From contig CANQYI010000006.1 in NCBI GenBank assembly GCA_947628005.1, forward strand, positions 1-57,972: DNA of 57,972 bases. Direction: 5' to 3'. A program made the translations under genes and the position numbers. Source of the stretch: an uncultured Clostridia bacterium (GTDB lineage: Bacteria > Bacillota > Clostridia > TANB77 > CAG-465). This document shows positions 21,875 through 30,800 of this stretch, piece after piece. How positions within the stretch are numbered: position 1 is the stretch's first letter; every line of letters begins with the position of its first letter. The notes below the pieces were generated by a model. That model worked only from the letters and a program-made list of their open reading frames with translations, did not search any database and was not told where the DNA came from.

Positions 21875-22583
21875 TTTTAACCCTTTCTGCCTGAGATGCT
21901 CTAGCATAAATTGCTTTTAAAGTAAATGCGTTAAATAAATATTTTTCTGTATCTTTTATTTTTATAATAACTTCTAATAGGTCGTTTGTAGTTGGATATA
22001 ATAACTTTAATTTATAATCTGATATAATATTTAATAGATTATCTTTTATATCTCCACAAAAAATTATATTAGAAGCATCAATGTTTTCTTTTTCTATTAT
22101 ATTCTTTATATTCTCGTATGCTAAATCATACAAATCGTTTTTTATTGGAAGAATGTTTGCGCTCACAATTTTTCCTTCAGATGTAGATAATTTGTAAATT
22201 GAATAATAATATCTATCATTTTTTGCATCTATCAAAGATATAATGTACTTATCATCAGTAAAATTATATTTTAGATAAGTACACATTGCAGTAAGTTCTA
22301 GCGAAGAAATAGAAAAAATATCTTTGTTAAAAACGTGTGAAAATGCTTTTATAGTGGCAAGTCCAATACGTATACCTGTAAAAGACCCCGGTCCATTTAT
22401 TATACCAAACATATCTATATTTTTAAGCATTATATCAGCATCTTTTAATGTTTTATCAATAAGTGGTAATAATTTTTCTGAATGTGTAATTTCATTATTT
22501 ATAGAATCATTATATATTTTATCTTTTACCTTTAAACTTACACATGCATTCTTTGTCGTTGTATCAACTGCAAGTATGTTCAT
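21861..22583 (-). CDS. tsaB: tRNA threonylcarbamoyladenosine synthesis protein TsaB
   Basis: Partner of TsaD and TsaE in making t6A at position 37 of ANN-decoding tRNAs. 240 residues, with the actin-fold start MNILAVDTTTKNACVSL and NGPGSFTGIRIGLATIKAFS, the most conserved TsaB motif. It shares a base with the tsaE stop and overlaps rimI, showing tight coupling. tsaD is not in this window. Confidence 0.95.
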   Translation of the reverse strand: MNILAVDTTTKNACVSLKVKDKIYNDSINNEITHSEKLLPLIDKTLKDADIMLKNIDMFGIINGPGSFTGIRIGLATIKAFSHVFNKDIFSISSLELTAMCTYLKYNFTDDKYIISLIDAKNDRYYYSIYKLSTSEGKIVSANILPIKNDLYDLAYENIKNIIEKENIDASNIIFCGDIKDNLLNIISDYKLKLLYPTTNDLLEVIIKIKDTEKYLFNAFTLKAIYARASQAERVKNGEK

Positions 22584-23026
22584 TAAACTACCTCCCTCTT
22601 TATAACGATTTTTCTAGTATTAAAGTCTAAATTATCTTTTTCAATGTTTACATATATTGTCCTCTTTGGAAGAATATCTTTAATAATATCTCCCCATTCA
22701 ATTATTGAAATGCCCTGATCAAAGTACTCAGTGCCAACTTTACTTATAAATTCATTGCTATCTTCTAGTCTGTATACATCAAAGTGGTATATAGAACTAC
22801 CATCATTTAATGTGTATTCATTTACAATAGTAAATGTTGGACTAGATATTTGATTTTCTATATTAAAATATGCTGCAATTCCTTGTACAAAAATAGTTTT
22901 TCCTGCACCAAGTTCACCATTTAATACAACTATATCATCTTTATTTAACCTTTTGGCAAAATTATAAGCTAATTTTTTTGTTTCTGTTTCAGATTTACAA
23001 ATATATTCTTCGTTAATTGTTTCCAT
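22583..23026 (-). CDS. tsaE: tRNA threonylcarbamoyladenosine synthesis ATPase TsaE
   Basis: P-loop ATPase that drives the TsaB-TsaD cycle. I choose ATG at 23026 (METINEEYICKSETE), which has AGGTG at normal spacing; the in-frame GTG at 23035 overlaps that site. 147 residues, with LNGELGAGKTIFVQGIA (Walker A, about 37), SPTFTIVNEY, HFDVYRL and IIEWGD, all signatures of the family. First gene of the operon, with its own strong promoter. Confidence 0.96.
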   Translation of the reverse strand: METINEEYICKSETETKKLAYNFAKRLNKDDIVVLNGELGAGKTIFVQGIAAYFNIENQISSPTFTIVNEYTLNDGSSIYHFDVYRLEDSNEFISKVGTEYFDQGISIIEWGDIIKDILPKRTIYVNIEKDNLDFNTRKIVIKREVV

Positions 23027-23042
23027 TTTGTTCACCTATATG

Positions 23043-23173: not shown

Positions 23174-24712
23174 ATGATGACGAGTGTCAGTTCTAATAAA
23201 CGAGGAATAACTCTTATAGTATTACTTATAACTATTATTGTAACTTTAATAATTTTATCAGCATCAACTATTAAAATTTTAGACGCAGCTGATAATTCTA
23301 CAATAGCTGCATTTGCCGAAGAATTAAGAAGTTTAGAAGATAGTGCAAGAGAATACTACTTACAAAATAATGTTTTACCAGTAACAGATGAAAGTAGCCC
23401 ATTAAAATTAAATGATGTTTTAAATATGAGCTCTGAAGATATACAAGATACATTTAGAAAAGCTTTATCTGAAGAATTAGAAATTAATTCTGATAATTCA
23501 GATACAACGTCATTTTATAAATTAGATTTAGCAAAATTAAGTGTATCTACAACTACTAGAGGCGCAATGGGAAAAGGTAATCCTAAAGATATATATGTTA
23601 TAGCATATCCATCTTTTAGAATTTACTATATTGATGGAGTCGAAGCTAAAAGAACTATATATTTTTCTTTAAGTAGAAAAATTCAGGCAGTAAATAATGT
23701 AAAAGTTGATATTTCTAATTTCACTAATGAAGATGTTAATACAACAAATGCCTCAGGATTAAATGTAAAAAAAGTTGAAGATGGTATCACAAATAAAATG
23801 GGTATAATAATAAGTACCAAAATTGATGATGCTAATTCAGAAAAATTATATTTGAAAGTGCCAAATGTGGAACAAAGACAAATACCTGGAACTTTTGCAG
23901 GATTTAATAGTATTAGAATAGATAATTTAAAAGATAATGAAAAAGCAGCAATTAATAGCCTTTTACCAGAAGAAAAATATGTAGATATAATAAAGAAAAA
24001 AGATAATTTAGAAATTGCTAAAGTAAGAGTAGATATATCTGATTATGATAGTACGTGCCCAGTTATTTCAGGCACTCCAATAATAAAGAAAAATAGTACA
24101 GTTAATCTTTTATACTTTGATGTTTCTGATTTACCAACAGTTAATGGAAATATCGTTCAAACAGCTACTACTAGCGGTATAAAGGAAGTAAGATACGAAT
24201 ATCTAAAAAAATATAATGAACAAAATTTTACAGAGAAAAATTATTATACAAATACTTCTGATTTTACTGATAGCTACATGAAGTCAGAGGCTAAAAAGGC
24301 AGATATATCTAGCAGTGGAACAGTGAAGATAGAACTTGAAAAAAATGTTACAAAGATAAAAATTTGCATAGTTGATAATGCACAAAATTATACTGTTTAT
24401 GAGCAAACTACAGCAGGTGGAATTAATATAGGATATAGTATTAATTCATTTAATAACAATTATTTCAATCTTGATCTAAAAATATACACTGATGAGGCAA
24501 TACAAAGTGGTCAGATTCAAATAAGTTCAGATGGCGTAAATTTTATTGAACCAAGAGACTTTTCTAATATTCCTGCTTTAAGTACACAAACAATTAATGT
24601 TGTGTATGATAACGTGATTACTTTAGAAAACTTTGCATATGTAAAAGTTATAATGAACAAGGCTTCAAATGAACAAGAAGAACAGATAATAAAAATAGAT
24701 CTTAATATGTAA
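23174..24712 (+). CDS. Type IV pilin-like surface protein (short paralogue)
   Basis: 512 residues. The N-terminus NKRGITLIVLLITIIVTLII looks like a prepilin signal: basic leader, Gly at the peptidase site, then a hydrophobic helix. The canonical Glu at mature position 5 is Val. After the helix there is an amphipathic segment (DNSTIAAFAEELRSLEDSAR) and a large exported region with Ig-like beta-rich stretches, for example ISDYDSTCPVISGTPIIK and VTKIKICIVDNAQNYT. The next gene encodes a paralogue over almost the whole length. It probably assembles on, or anchors in, the membrane and faces outward. No pilus assembly genes lie nearby. Ribosome site AAGGTGG. Confidence 0.7.
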   Translation: MMTSVSSNKRGITLIVLLITIIVTLIILSASTIKILDAADNSTIAAFAEELRSLEDSAREYYLQNNVLPVTDESSPLKLNDVLNMSSEDIQDTFRKALSEELEINSDNSDTTSFYKLDLAKLSVSTTTRGAMGKGNPKDIYVIAYPSFRIYYIDGVEAKRTIYFSLSRKIQAVNNVKVDISNFTNEDVNTTNASGLNVKKVEDGITNKMGIIISTKIDDANSEKLYLKVPNVEQRQIPGTFAGFNSIRIDNLKDNEKAAINSLLPEEKYVDIIKKKDNLEIAKVRVDISDYDSTCPVISGTPIIKKNSTVNLLYFDVSDLPTVNGNIVQTATTSGIKEVRYEYLKKYNEQNFTEKNYYTNTSDFTDSYMKSEAKKADISSSGTVKIELEKNVTKIKICIVDNAQNYTVYEQTTAGGINIGYSINSFNNNYFNLDLKIYTDEAIQSGQIQISSDGVNFIEPRDFSNIPALSTQTINVVYDNVITLENFAYVKVIMNKASNEQEEQIIKIDLNM

Positions 24713-24731
24713 TTTTATTTTGGGTGGTATA

Positions 24732-27146
24732 ATGAAAAAAAATCAAATGAAAGGTATTTCTCTAATTGCATTAGTAATTACTATACTTGTTTCATTAATA
24801 CTTGTATCAGTTGCGGTAGCTGCAACAGGTAATGCAATTGAAAATGCTAATATAACTCAGTATATAGATAATTTAACCTTAGTTAAAGATTCTGTTGAAG
24901 CATATTATATAACAAATGGAAGTTTTCCTCTTTTAGAAGAAAATTCTTATAATCAAGGAGAAATTTTAAATTTAATTGGATCAAAAAAGACTCAAGCAGA
25001 TAAAGACACATTTTTATATGATATGAGACAAAACGAAGATTATTTAGAAGATGATAAATTGGGTGATTACTATATAATTGATATAGCAAAACTTGATATA
25101 GAAAAATCTGATATTGGTAATAGAGTTAGATCAGATTTAGATGTTTTTGCTTTTTCATATCCTTCTATGAATATCTATTATTTAGAGGGAAAGAAGATAA
25201 AGGGAGATATTTATTTTTCTCTAAATAAGAGATTAACTTATATTTCAAATATAAGTAATAACATGGAAGAAAATGATGTAAGTACAGGAATAAGTGTACA
25301 AACTTTAGGAAATATAACTATAACAAAAAATAATTCTTTATGGACTAGTAATTTAGGACTTACAATTACAGGTGAAGATGTAAAGCAACAAAATGTGTCA
25401 ATAAGAATTTCTGGATCTGAAGCTTGGCATACAGTGACAAAAGAAATTTCTGCAGGCGATGCAGTTAATAAGATCATTGATTTTAACTACAATAATAAGC
25501 TAGGAACTGCTCTTTCACAATCTGAAATAAATTCTTTTAATATAACAGCTTCAACTGAAAGATATATAGAAGTAAAAACAGGGGCATCAACTTTAAAAGT
25601 AGATTTATCAAATTATGATGATAGAGCACCAGAAATTAGAACATGTACTGTGACGAATAATCCAGAGATGTCAATTGTATCGTATGGATTAGATGATTAC
25701 GATAGTGGAATAAGAGAAATAAGATATGATTATCTTACTAAATTTGATGAAAATGGAAATATAACAAATTATTATGATTTTGATATACAAAATGATGAAT
25801 ATATGTTGACTAAATCTAAAAAAGTTAGAGCTCTAGGACAAAACAATTTAAGTATAAAAATACCAAAAAATGTAAATAAAATTGTTGTTTATGTAATAGA
25901 TAATGCAGGTAATTTTATAAGAGAACATGACAGAGTTGTAAAAGCAAAATATGTGTCTATTGATGCAAAAATAAATTATTTCTACTCTGATGGCTTTAAT
26001 TTTTCACTAGATATAGTAGGAGATTATGCAAGTATTGAAACGAGTGTTATAACTGAAAAAGATAGCAATTTAGATTTTAGAACAACATTTGATGAAGTTC
26101 CAAAGGATGTAGATTATAGAGGATTTACAAATGGAATAGAGAGCATATATCTAAAAGTTAAAGTTATATCTGTAAGTAATGGAAAGCAAATGGAAACAGT
26201 TAAAAACTTCCAATTTGATCTTTTAGGTAATTATCCATATGTACCAGCAGGATTTTATTATGTAGGTGGCACAAGTGATACTGGATTTATAATATCTGAT
26301 AACGTAAACGATAAATCAAAATCTGATAGCTTTGAAATTTCTTCTAGTTTGCTTGGAAATCAATTTGTATGGATACCTGTAGATATTGATTCATCTTCTG
26401 TACAAAATTTAAAAACAAAGTGGTTTAGAACTTCTTTTGAATCAGGCTCAGAATATAATAAAACAACTACTAGATCAGTATTAGAGTCTTCTTATACTGA
26501 ACCTCTAGATTTTAATGGAATACATGCTTCTTCAAGCGAAATAAGATTATACAATGATGTTTTGGCAGGAATCCAAAAATATAAGGGATTTTATGTAGGA
26601 AGGTATGAAGCAGGTGTAGACCACGCAACATCTGCTAGAACTAAAGAAGATGTTAATAAATCTGCTAAAATTGGAATAAGAAAAGAATTATATGCTTATA
26701 ACTGGATTAATTTCTCAAATTCTGCAACTGATATAAGTTCCGGTGCAAGTTATCTTGCAAATAATATGTATAACAATAATTTTGTAGGCTCTAACCTTAT
26801 ATTTGGAATACAGTGGGATCAAGTGATGAAATTTGTAAATAAAAATGTTTCTAATAGTAGAGATTGGGGTAATTATTTGGATTCTACTGGTGAAGCAGAA
26901 GCATTTAAAGGAGCATATGATTATAAAACAGGAAGAAATAAAGAGTGGTGTGCAAATAATATATATGATTTAGCTGGTAACTTGTCAGAGTGGACAATGG
27001 AATCATATGCAAATAGTGCTAGAGTTACTCGTGGTGGAAATTATTCTCAAATGGGAACTACTAATTCTGCCGGAAGTAGACTTGCTTATGAGCCAAAAAC
27101 TGCAAGTGAATTAATAGGATTTAGAGTATGTTTATATCTAAAATAA
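24732..27146 (+). CDS. Type IV pilin-like protein fused to an FGE/SUMF1-like lectin-fold domain
   Basis: 804 residues from ATG at 24732 after GGGTGG; a TTG at 24720 is rejected because it lies inside the ribosome site. The N-terminus GISLIALVITILVSLILVSV is a prepilin-like helix with Ala, not Glu, at position 5. Residues to about 490 are paralogous to the preceding protein (IRYDYLTKF versus VRYEYLKKY; NKIVVYVIDNAGN versus TKIKICIVDNAQN). The last 300 residues add a SUMF1-type domain: FVWIPVD, GFYVGRYEAG, NNIYDLAGNLSEWT, RVTRGGNYSQ and the closing GFRVC. The two active-site cysteines of true formylglycine-generating enzyme are absent between RGGNY and GFRV, so it should bind ligand rather than catalyse. 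Confidence 0.75.
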   Translation: MKKNQMKGISLIALVITILVSLILVSVAVAATGNAIENANITQYIDNLTLVKDSVEAYYITNGSFPLLEENSYNQGEILNLIGSKKTQADKDTFLYDMRQNEDYLEDDKLGDYYIIDIAKLDIEKSDIGNRVRSDLDVFAFSYPSMNIYYLEGKKIKGDIYFSLNKRLTYISNISNNMEENDVSTGISVQTLGNITITKNNSLWTSNLGLTITGEDVKQQNVSIRISGSEAWHTVTKEISAGDAVNKIIDFNYNNKLGTALSQSEINSFNITASTERYIEVKTGASTLKVDLSNYDDRAPEIRTCTVTNNPEMSIVSYGLDDYDSGIREIRYDYLTKFDENGNITNYYDFDIQNDEYMLTKSKKVRALGQNNLSIKIPKNVNKIVVYVIDNAGNFIREHDRVVKAKYVSIDAKINYFYSDGFNFSLDIVGDYASIETSVITEKDSNLDFRTTFDEVPKDVDYRGFTNGIESIYLKVKVISVSNGKQMETVKNFQFDLLGNYPYVPAGFYYVGGTSDTGFIISDNVNDKSKSDSFEISSSLLGNQFVWIPVDIDSSSVQNLKTKWFRTSFESGSEYNKTTTRSVLESSYTEPLDFNGIHASSSEIRLYNDVLAGIQKYKGFYVGRYEAGVDHATSARTKEDVNKSAKIGIRKELYAYNWINFSNSATDISSGASYLANNMYNNNFVGSNLIFGIQWDQVMKFVNKNVSNSRDWGNYLDSTGEAEAFKGAYDYKTGRNKEWCANNIYDLAGNLSEWTMESYANSARVTRGGNYSQMGTTNSAGSRLAYEPKTASELIGFRVCLYLK

Positions 27147-27212: not shown

Positions 27213-27236
27213 ACTTGTATGTTATAGGTGATAAAA

Positions 27237-30200
27237 ATGTGGACTAAAGAACAAGAAATGGCTATAAATAAAAAAGACTCAAACATATTAGTTTCTGCCT
27301 CAGCAGGAAGTGGTAAGACTGCTGTATTAGTAGAAAGAGTAATATCAACTTGCATAGAACAAAAAGTAGATATAGATAAATTGCTTGTTGTTACATTTAC
27401 TAAAGCATCAGCCTCAGAATTAAAAGAAAAGCTGTATAATGCGATATATTCTAAATTAAAAGATAATCCAGCAGATAAATTTATAAAAAGACAATTAAGT
27501 TTAATTAGTAGATCTAATATAACAACTATGCATTCATTTTGTTTAGATTTAGTTAGATCTAATTTTTATATTTTAGATATTGATCCAAACTTTAAAATTT
27601 GTGATGAGTCGCAAGAAAAATTGTTAAAGAATAAAGCTGTACAAAAAGTTATAGAAAAATTATATCAAGAATATAATGAAAACTTGAATACAGATGATAT
27701 AAACTTATATGATGTACTTGAGTTATTTTCGCAAAAAGAGGACTTATTTATGGAAGAATTATTAAAAATATATAATTTTTCCCAAAGTTTCCCGTATCCA
27801 ATGCAGTTTTTAAAAGAAAGTATAGATGTTTATAATATAAGTAATTTAGATAGCGATTTATCGGATTTTGAATTTGGTAAAAATCAGATAGATGAGTGCC
27901 TAGGAGATTTAAATATACTAAAGAAAAGATGCGAAAAATTCATAGAAAAATTGCAGTACGATGACGATTTTTTAAGTTATATAGATGTTCTAAAAAATGA
28001 TATAAATTTCCTTGATTCAATTATTTTAAATAACAATATATCTTGGGACTTCTTATATGATAAATTAAATCCAGATTGTATTTCAAATAATCCAAGATAT
28101 AAAGGAACAAATTTACTTCTAAAAGATGAAGTAATGTATTTTAGAAATAAGGTTTTAAAAGATTCAATAAAAAAAATGAGCCAGAATATATGTAAAAGAT
28201 CTAGGGATGTTTTACTAGAAAATAAAAGGGCATACGGATACTTACAGTATATATTTGAGGCAGTAAAAAGAATAGATGAAAATTATTTAAAATTAAAGAA
28301 ATCTAAAAATTTATTAGATTTTTCAGATATTGAACACTTTGCATTAAATTTGTTAGTTGAGAGAAAAGATGAAAAAGTTAACAAAACTGATATTGCTAAG
28401 CAGTTTGAACAGGATTTTTATGAAGTGTATACAGATGAGTATCAAGATACAAGTTATGTGCAGGAGGCAATATTAAATTCTGTTTCAAAAGATAATAACA
28501 GATTTATGGTAGGCGATATAAAACAAAGTATATATAAGTTTAGACAGGCTATACCAGATATTTTTAATCAAAAATATATAGCTTACCCAATTTTAGAAAA
28601 TTTGGAAAGTGATGGCAAGAATTATAAGATTATACTTGATAAAAATTTTAGAAGTAGAAAGACAGTCTTAGACTCAATAAATTATATTTTTGAAAAAATA
28701 ATGAGTATGAAAAATGGAGATTGTGAATATTCAAATATTGAAACCTTAAAAAATGGAAATAAAGACTTTGTTGATATGGACTTGCAGGATTATAAAACTG
28801 AAATAAATATAATCAACCTAAATAAGTCTAATAAAACTTCAAGTGAAGTTGATGAATTTTTAGAAGATAATAAATCTTTTGAAATAGAAGCAATTCAAAT
28901 TGCAAATACAATAGATAAATTAAAAGAAGATTTTAAAGTTTATGATACAAAGAAAAAAGAGTTTAGAAACATAAAATATAAAGACATAGTTATATTATTA
29001 AGAAGTGCAAAAGAAAAGTCTTTAATATTAGAAAAGGTCTTAAAAGAAAGAAAAATTCCAGTTTTTTGCGATACAACTTCTAGTCTTTTAGAAAGCGATG
29101 AAGTAAAATTTGTACTATCTTTCTTAAGACTGTTAGATAATCCACTACAAGACATATACCTTGCAAGTGTGATGTACAGTATAATTGGTAATTTTACATT
29201 AGATGAATTAATTTCAATACGTAATGAAAATAAAAATGTGAACTTATTCTATAATGTATTAAGTAAAAAAAGTTCATTAGAAAGTAAGGAAAGCTTATCT
29301 AGAGAAGATGAAGTTATACTAAGTAAAATAAATGAATTTTTAGAATTACTAAATAAATTTAATGATTATAAAAATATATTAAATGTAAGTCAATTAATAA
29401 CTAGAATTTATAAAGAAACTAATCTATATTATGAATTTTCTATGGAGGAAAATTCCAATATTAGAAAAGCTAATTTAGATATGCTAGTTGATTTTGCTAT
29501 TAAATTTGAACAAAATGAAGCAAAAAATTTGGCCTCATATATAGATTATATCGACAATATGAGATCCAAAGATGATTCAACTAATTCTGCTAAAATTATA
29601 GGCGAAAACGAAGATGTAGTAAGAGTAATGACAATACATAAATCTAAAGGTTTGGAATTTCCTGTAGTTATTTTGGCAGATACTAGCAAAAGTTATAATT
29701 TCAAAGATAAATCATCAACTATACTACTTCATCATAAATTAGGAGTAGGAATAGACATAGTTGATAAAGAATACAAAATTTCTTATCCTTCAGTAATAAA
29801 GAAGGCAATATCTTCTGCTATTGATATGGAAACAAGATCTGAAGAACTTAGATTGTTGTATGTTGCAATGACTAGAGCAAAAGAAAAACTTATTATTTTT
29901 TCTACAGTAAAAGATTATTCTAAGTTTAAAGAAAAAGAATTAGTATTCTACGAAAAAGATAAAATTGATCCTTATTTGATATCAAAAAATAATTCTTATT
30001 TTGAAAATATACATATGTGTTTAGGTCAAGATAGTGCTAATCTTTTTTGTGTAAATATAATTAATGCAGCAGATGTATTAAAAAGCAGTTGTGCTATGGA
30101 AAATACAAATATATATGAAAAACTTGAAAGTATAAATCTTGATGATATAGATTTAAGTGATGTACAAAAAACTTTAAATTATGAATATCCATACAAAGAA

Positions 30201-30800
30201 TATACAGAAAGTGAAAAGAGAATTAGTGTTACAAGCTTAAAGAAAGAGAAAAATTTAGTAGCTAATATATCAAATAATATTAGTGAAAAATATTCTATAG
30301 ATGAAGTTATTAATAAAAAAATTACTCCTGAAAAGCGAGGAACTCTTACACATTTTGTATTAGAACAATTAGATTACAATATAAAATCCAGTCTTGAACT
30401 TGAAAATTATATTAATCAATTAGTAGATAAAAATATTATTTCAAACGAAGATGTAAAGAATATAAATAAAGATAGTATAATTGAGTATCTAAATTCCGAA
30501 CTTGCTGAAAAGATTAGAAAGAGTACATATGTAAGGAAAGAAGAGGAATTTATATTAAAGGATGAAAAAATATCTTTAAGTCAAATACAGGGAATAATAG
30601 ATTTATATTTTATAAACGAAAATTCAAATATTGAACTTGTCGATTTTAAAACAGATAGGCTTAATAAAGATGAAGAATTTATTGAAAATTATAAAGTTCA
30701 ACTAGATACTTATGCCTATGCCTTAGAAAAAATCACAGGGAAAAAAGTTGAACAAAAGCATATATATTCTTTATATTTAAATAAAGATATTAAATTATAG
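27237..30800 (+). CDS. addA: ATP-dependent helicase/nuclease subunit A (AddA)
   Basis: Helicase-nuclease subunit that processes double-strand breaks with AddB. 1187 residues from ATG at 27237 (MWTKEQEMAINKKDSNILVSA); the GTG at 27228 overlaps the ribosome site. SF1 motifs in order: SASAGSGKT (Walker A), TDEYQDTS (motif II), GDIKQSIYKFRQA (III), NFRSR (IV), MTIHKSKGLEFPVV (V) and LLYVAMTRAKEKL (VI). The C-terminal RecB-type nuclease shows QGIIDLYF and VDFKTDRL, with catalytic Asp and Lys present. In most Bacillota addB lies directly upstream; here the upstream genes are pilin-like and addB is not in the window. Confidence 0.95.
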   Translation: MWTKEQEMAINKKDSNILVSASAGSGKTAVLVERVISTCIEQKVDIDKLLVVTFTKASASELKEKLYNAIYSKLKDNPADKFIKRQLSLISRSNITTMHSFCLDLVRSNFYILDIDPNFKICDESQEKLLKNKAVQKVIEKLYQEYNENLNTDDINLYDVLELFSQKEDLFMEELLKIYNFSQSFPYPMQFLKESIDVYNISNLDSDLSDFEFGKNQIDECLGDLNILKKRCEKFIEKLQYDDDFLSYIDVLKNDINFLDSIILNNNISWDFLYDKLNPDCISNNPRYKGTNLLLKDEVMYFRNKVLKDSIKKMSQNICKRSRDVLLENKRAYGYLQYIFEAVKRIDENYLKLKKSKNLLDFSDIEHFALNLLVERKDEKVNKTDIAKQFEQDFYEVYTDEYQDTSYVQEAILNSVSKDNNRFMVGDIKQSIYKFRQAIPDIFNQKYIAYPILENLESDGKNYKIILDKNFRSRKTVLDSINYIFEKIMSMKNGDCEYSNIETLKNGNKDFVDMDLQDYKTEINIINLNKSNKTSSEVDEFLEDNKSFEIEAIQIANTIDKLKEDFKVYDTKKKEFRNIKYKDIVILLRSAKEKSLILEKVLKERKIPVFCDTTSSLLESDEVKFVLSFLRLLDNPLQDIYLASVMYSIIGNFTLDELISIRNENKNVNLFYNVLSKKSSLESKESLSREDEVILSKINEFLELLNKFNDYKNILNVSQLITRIYKETNLYYEFSMEENSNIRKANLDMLVDFAIKFEQNEAKNLASYIDYIDNMRSKDDSTNSAKIIGENEDVVRVMTIHKSKGLEFPVVILADTSKSYNFKDKSSTILLHHKLGVGIDIVDKEYKISYPSVIKKAISSAIDMETRSEELRLLYVAMTRAKEKLIIFSTVKDYSKFKEKELVFYEKDKIDPYLISKNNSYFENIHMCLGQDSANLFCVNIINAADVLKSSCAMENTNIYEKLESINLDDIDLSDVQKTLNYEYPYKEYTESEKRISVTSLKKEKNLVANISNNISEKYSIDEVINKKITPEKRGTLTHFVLEQLDYNIKSSLELENYINQLVDKNIISNEDVKNINKDSIIEYLNSELAEKIRKSTYVRKEEEFILKDEKISLSQIQGIIDLYFINENSNIELVDFKTDRLNKDEEFIENYKVQLDTYAYALEKITGKKVEQKHIYSLYLNKDIKL

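Follow-up and report, generated by a model that had tools for sequence, protein, structure and literature searches.

A modular pilin-like gene at a conserved locus

The window, a 57,972-nucleotide stretch of DNA from an uncultured Clostridia bacterium, carries on its forward strand a gene (24732..27146; ATG at 24732, stop at 27146) for an 804-residue modular pilin-like protein with a C-terminal domain of the C-type lectin/formylglycine-generating enzyme (CLec/FGE) fold. A ribosome-binding-like GGGTGG sequence (24722..24727, + strand) lies 4 bp 5′ of the ATG. The upstream partner gene (23174..24712, + strand) stops 19 bp short of it on the same strand and encodes a 512-residue prepilin-leader protein (KRG/ITLIVLLITIIV) which has the same N-terminal and middle region and is devoid of the CLec domain. 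The two proteins are 28% identical (E 4e-33) over residues 8–451 of the 808-residue translation; the shared stretch of about 440 residues is close to the 480 that had been estimated from the sequence alone.

The gene pair is flanked by a tsaE homologue on the left (22583..23035, − strand; 51–64% identity in relatives) and an addA-type helicase homologue on the right (27228..30800, + strand; 47–53% identity in relatives). One or both of these neighbors adjoin a homologous locus in six relatives (G008, G026, G030, G031, G035 and G043). The locus homologues themselves are about 30% identical, as against 42–68% for the neighboring genes in the same relatives; judged by these comparisons, this is a conserved, fast-evolving locus for a putative surface protein. 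Full-length homologues are also present in G009, G011 and G037, which were compared without flanking sequence. Viral contigs held only four relatives.

Prepilin-like N-terminus and pilus machinery

The protein begins with a prepilin-type leader, MKKNQMKG (24732..24755, + strand), and reads MKKNQMKG/ISLIALVITILVSLI, the slash marking the predicted cleavage after Gly8. This glycine is invariant in alignment A1, and the +5 residue is Ala, in agreement with the Glu5-lacking prepilin-type N-terminus described in the original prediction. A hydrophobic, α1-like helix spans residues 9–62 (24756..24917, + strand), with residues 11–62 helical in a low-confidence model. A profile built from the N-terminal ~185 residues matches the solved pilins geopilin (E 0.0011) and Streptococcus sanguinis PilE1 (E 0.0054), and the GspG model is matched weakly, under its curated cut-off, by nine of ten members (best E 6.9e-6). 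A prepilin leader ending in Gly and then a hydrophobic helix, the hallmarks of a type IV pilin, are both present, at scores that stay below the curated family cut-offs. Residues 63–503 (24918..26240, + strand) constitute a pilin head-like and β-rich middle that is common with the upstream partner to about residue 450. Because the full-length structure model is poor (pLDDT 45), with the pilin globular head not resolved in it, the middle region is left without an assigned fold.

Both a prepilin peptidase and an assembly machinery are encoded in the window genome (1.2 Mb, 98.4% complete, 16 contigs). An A24 prepilin peptidase with a GMGFGD (GxGD) motif is found on contig C2, and one operon on contig C1 encodes PilB, PilT, PilC and PilN-domain homologues; the search for PilD, PilB and PilC homologues proposed at the outset thus located all three, plus PilT. 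The pilin within the C1 operon has the leader KQG/ISLIVLVITIVV, likewise without Glu5, as do nearly all prepilin-type leaders of this genome; one was found with Glu5, KKKG/VFLVELLAAV. The absent Glu5 is therefore no special clue, and the idea that it marks a tip subunit was dropped on the same ground. The prepilin peptidase of this genome is itself split (L021:13584-14402 and L022:7237-7980): a minor pilin of the pilus operon, one that has Glu5, is joined to the A24 N-terminal domain, and the catalytic A24 domain is encoded separately at another site. The same kind of Glu5-less prepilin-type leader also heads a protein exceeding 4,880 residues, truncated at the contig edge (L023; G000:C3:1-14646). 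A second CLec protein of the window genome possesses a plain N-terminal transmembrane segment and no prepilin motif, and seven sortase-domain matches indicate that other display routes exist in this genome.

A non-catalytic CLec/FGE-fold domain

The AlphaFold2 model, the PDB matches and the alignment assign residues 504–804 (26241..27143, + strand; 301 residues) to a non-catalytic CLec/FGE-fold domain. AlphaFold2 modeled the domain from 49 sequences with a pLDDT of 91.4 and a pTM of 0.91. Comparison of the model to the PDB with VIA-align gave Z values of 13–16 over 157–204 residues, the best matches being the diversity-generating retroelement (DGR) variable proteins TaqVP (Z 15.8, 204 residues) and TvpA (Z 15.2), followed by PvdO (Z 14.5), Mtd (Z 14.1), CalU17 (Z 14.1) and FGE (Z 13.8). 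As these values lie close together, they indicate a common fold and not a function. The Pfam family PF03781 scores 22.9 bits on the full protein, just below its gathering score of 23.3, and covers only the last ~80 residues; the domain alone passes at 26.3 bits.

The segment RGGNYSQMGTTNSAGSR is the window counterpart of the FGE catalytic-cysteine segment, a correspondence drawn from the established FGE catalytic residues. It contains no cysteine; the catalytic pair of the RGGSxxCxxxxC segment is absent, and FGE-type enzymatic activity is thus unlikely. The cysteines near the C-terminal motif sit in EWCANN and FRVCLY, and no Cys or His is invariant in the 49-member domain alignment. The open reading frame, the leader, the homology and the domain fold are all far beyond chance. 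The leader, the pilin profiles, the confident domain model and the PF03781 match bear out the original prediction of a pilin-type N-terminus fused to a non-catalytic SUMF1/FGE domain; the absence of the FGE active-site cysteines and the outcome of the structure prediction, which it had put forward as a check, were likewise as anticipated.

Homologous domains are diversified in relatives

Of 95 genomes from the window's genus, family and order, 59 contain the domain, at up to 25 matches per genome. Many of these relatives' domain proteins are 400–450 residues long with a prepilin-type leader, and in several relatives a ~340-residue reverse transcriptase (RT) adjoins such a gene. We queried the loci around RTs for pairs of a template repeat (TR) and a variable region (VR), that is, repeats whose mismatches sit on template adenines, and 15 of the 20 loci contained such a pair. 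Mismatches fell at TR adenines in 20 of 20 cases in G053, 23 of 23 in G078, 17 of 17 in G050 and 13 of 13 in G040. The VR is the end of the CLec domain of a prepilin-leader protein in G078, G053, G084, G040, G083, G011, G079 and G009; the window domain has direct homologues in the targets of G053 (E 1.1e-35) and G078 (E 2.6e-27), and G009 and G011 belong to the window's genus. By these sequence signatures, DGRs target homologous CLec proteins with a prepilin leader at all three levels, genus, family and order. Several DGRs in the same genomes (L095, L096 and L098–L100) are directed at other targets and were left out of the comparison.

Two loci, L101 from another family (G079:C77) and L102 from the window's genus (G009:C107), have a 4,033-bp DGR locus in common, with 18 differences, 15 of which lie inside the 109-bp VR. 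Their TR/VR mismatches (15 and 8) are all at template adenines. A recent transfer, or an error in binning, may account for the presence of this contig in two families; the hypervariation holds in either case, and the pair provides a natural snapshot of hypermutation in a prepilin-leader protein. A conserved 23-nucleotide element, AGATTATRTATTTTAMGGAATAT, is positioned just 3′ of the TR (L239–L248 and others). It occurs once each in 17 of 95 genomes, its reversed sequence having no match in the 95, and may serve DGRs of this type as a structural or priming element.

The window copy looks fixed

The VR-equivalent segment of the window gene (RGGNYS...GFRVCLYLK; 27030..27143, + strand), aligned with the VR proteins of the homologous DGR targets, bears no sign of diversification. 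The 98.4% complete window genome yields zero RVT_1 matches and lacks both the 23-nucleotide cassette tag and a TR-like repeat of the gene end, for which a 61-bp, 80% match to the second CLec gene was the only return. Codons ending in C or T (NNY) make up 54% of the VR-equivalent and Q/M/K/E/W residues 19%, close to the 50% and 17% of the whole gene; in true VRs, by comparison, these values are 87% and 0.7%. The NNY-rich footprint that DGRs leave in variable codons is thus absent, by a test that covers a small sample of 26 codons and agrees with the RT, TR and tag searches. The window CLec domain looks fixed rather than diversified, and no DGR was detected in the window genome. Of the DGR link in the original prediction, the family-level part is real, given the DGR-targeted CLec homologues with prepilin leaders at the genus, family and order level; for the window gene itself hypervariability was not supported, as neither the suggested RT nor a template repeat matching the gene end was found in its genome.

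A model for the window protein

We assign a probability of about 0.7 to the reading that the window gene encodes a modular pilin-like adhesin whose binding domain is fixed and whose relatives in the same lineage diversify theirs. The N-terminal helix would insert the protein in the membrane, the prepilin peptidase would cut the leader, and the C-terminal CLec/FGE-fold domain would be displayed at the exterior, where it would bind a ligand; the genome's type IV pilus machine may polymerize the protein as a minor subunit. The CLec family is large in this Clostridia order and its last ~40 residues are the DGR variable region in some members; in the window genome, the domain would be inherited as a fixed binding specificity. 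The window domain sits on a long branch and is not securely placed in the domain tree, so that an origin from a diversified ancestor is no more than putative. The poor full-length structure model and the weak, sub-cut-off matches to N-terminal pilin models also weigh against this reading.

At 804 residues, the protein is very large for a pilus subunit, which counts against this model and would suit a monomeric, membrane-anchored surface protein whose prepilin-like segment is an anchor only and never enters a pilus. The missing Glu5, the second CLec protein with its plain transmembrane segment, and the prepilin-like leaders on very large proteins, one beyond 4,880 residues, point the same way. 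Against a mere anchor, the pilin of the pilus operon carries the same Glu5-less leader, so that the machinery coexists with such leaders, and the leader glycine is invariant across relatives; we regard the anchor as possible, if somewhat doubtful. A domain that is diversified at present would need a DGR that the assembly lacks or that works in trans. The assembly, 98.4% complete in 16 contigs, could have missed a small cassette, and DGRs do occur in the same genus, yet the genome lacks an RVT_1 match, a TR-like repeat and the cassette tag, and the VR-equivalent codons resemble the rest of the gene, unlike those of true VRs; this reading is very unlikely. The FGE-family Pfam match and the resemblance to PvdO and FGE (Z 13–14.5) would befit an enzyme of the FGE, PvdO or sulfoxide-synthase kind, which is rendered highly improbable by the cysteine-free catalytic segment, the lack of invariant Cys or His in the alignment, and the service of the family as a DGR variable domain in relatives.

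Relation to known systems

The C-terminal domain of the window protein has its closest structural matches among DGR variable proteins: TvpA of Treponema denticola (2y3c), TaqVP (5vf4) and Mtd (1yu0–1yu4) possess the same fold (Z 14–16), and the homologues of the window domain likewise carry their VR at the C-terminal end. The window gene differs in that no DGR was found for it and in its pilin-like N-terminus. With FGE/SUMF1 (PF03781) the domain has the fold and the C-terminal motif (GN..EWT, RGG, GFR) in common, and it departs from them in lacking the catalytic cysteines; SUMF2, which is without these cysteines, is alike in this respect.

In the available parts of the sources, modular pilins are described as known and diverse (PMC8179133), and in S. 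sanguinis PilB (vWA) and PilC (ConA-like lectin), as in the window protein, a prepilin leader and N-terminal helix precede a large binding module at the C-terminus, both hosts being monoderms equipped with type IV pilus machinery (PMC8179133, PMC9934059). Compared with the modular pilins as portrayed there, the window protein has a module of the CLec/FGE fold, which those parts of the two papers do not name for modular pilins, a long β-rich middle and a leader without Glu5, and its place in a pilus is putative. According to Roux et al. 2021 (PMC8144416), most cellular DGR targets are anchored in the membrane and end in a CLec variable region, and pilin-linked DUF1566 targets have been mentioned earlier (PMC6642488). 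The proteins described here resemble the targets of Roux et al. in joining an N-terminal transmembrane segment to a C-terminal CLec variable domain; they differ from both sets in the FGE-type CLec, the uncultured Clostridia host and the many dispersed copies per genome, and the window copy differs further in showing no diversification. A literature search that covered few subscription journals returned no paper joining ‘diversity-generating retroelement’ with ‘prepilin’. For many cellular DGR targets, the display context is, to our knowledge, not known; the repeated joining of a variable CLec domain to a prepilin-type N-terminus, with a type IV pilus machine present, suggests a concrete and testable display route.

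Dispersed copies and decayed DGRs across the order

In G036, one TR resembles ~10 dispersed VRs, and the RT ahead of it has lost its YMDD motif (L106:802-1000, bases lost). Between this TR and the VRs, 18–34 of 43–70 template adenines differ, as do 8–21 of 76–121 other bases; the drift at other bases fits a DGR that has stopped. In G011 and G040 each TR corresponds to the neighboring VR alone, so that one template for every dispersed copy is not the general arrangement. A second RT is broken at the same catalytic motif in G059 (L256; G059:C25) by an insertion that, by our reading of the sequence, starts like a group II intron, and split RT fragments are found in G048, G067, G080, G081, G092 and G094 as well. 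G037 harbors 24 CLec-pilin copies with DGR-like variable codons (L077, L078, L079, L141 and L145), an indirect sign of a DGR; the genome has no RT match, and a TR for these copies was not found in it. The domain tree groups largely by genome, some copies from the full-length locus included, which suggests exchange or homogenization inside genomes.

For the order as a whole we tentatively propose, at somewhat less than even odds, that type IV pili or pilin-anchored proteins carry up to ~25 CLec-tipped subunits per genome which are diversified by DGRs, that a single template would serve ~10 dispersed genes in at least one genome, and that DGR loss in window-like lineages would freeze the repertoire. 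One lineage presents DGRs in three states, apparently active (G079/G009), broken (G036, G059) and absent (window), and the effects of gaining and losing hypermutation of a surface adhesin can therefore be compared within it.

Where the VR starts, a +1 frameshift recurs immediately behind the RGG motif (CGT GGY C GG) in L187, L176, L189, L196 and L226. Of ~129 domain ends, 10 were scored as +1 and none as −1; the cause may lie in the assembly, in broken copies or in recoding. In L187, the extra base is present in the TR as well.
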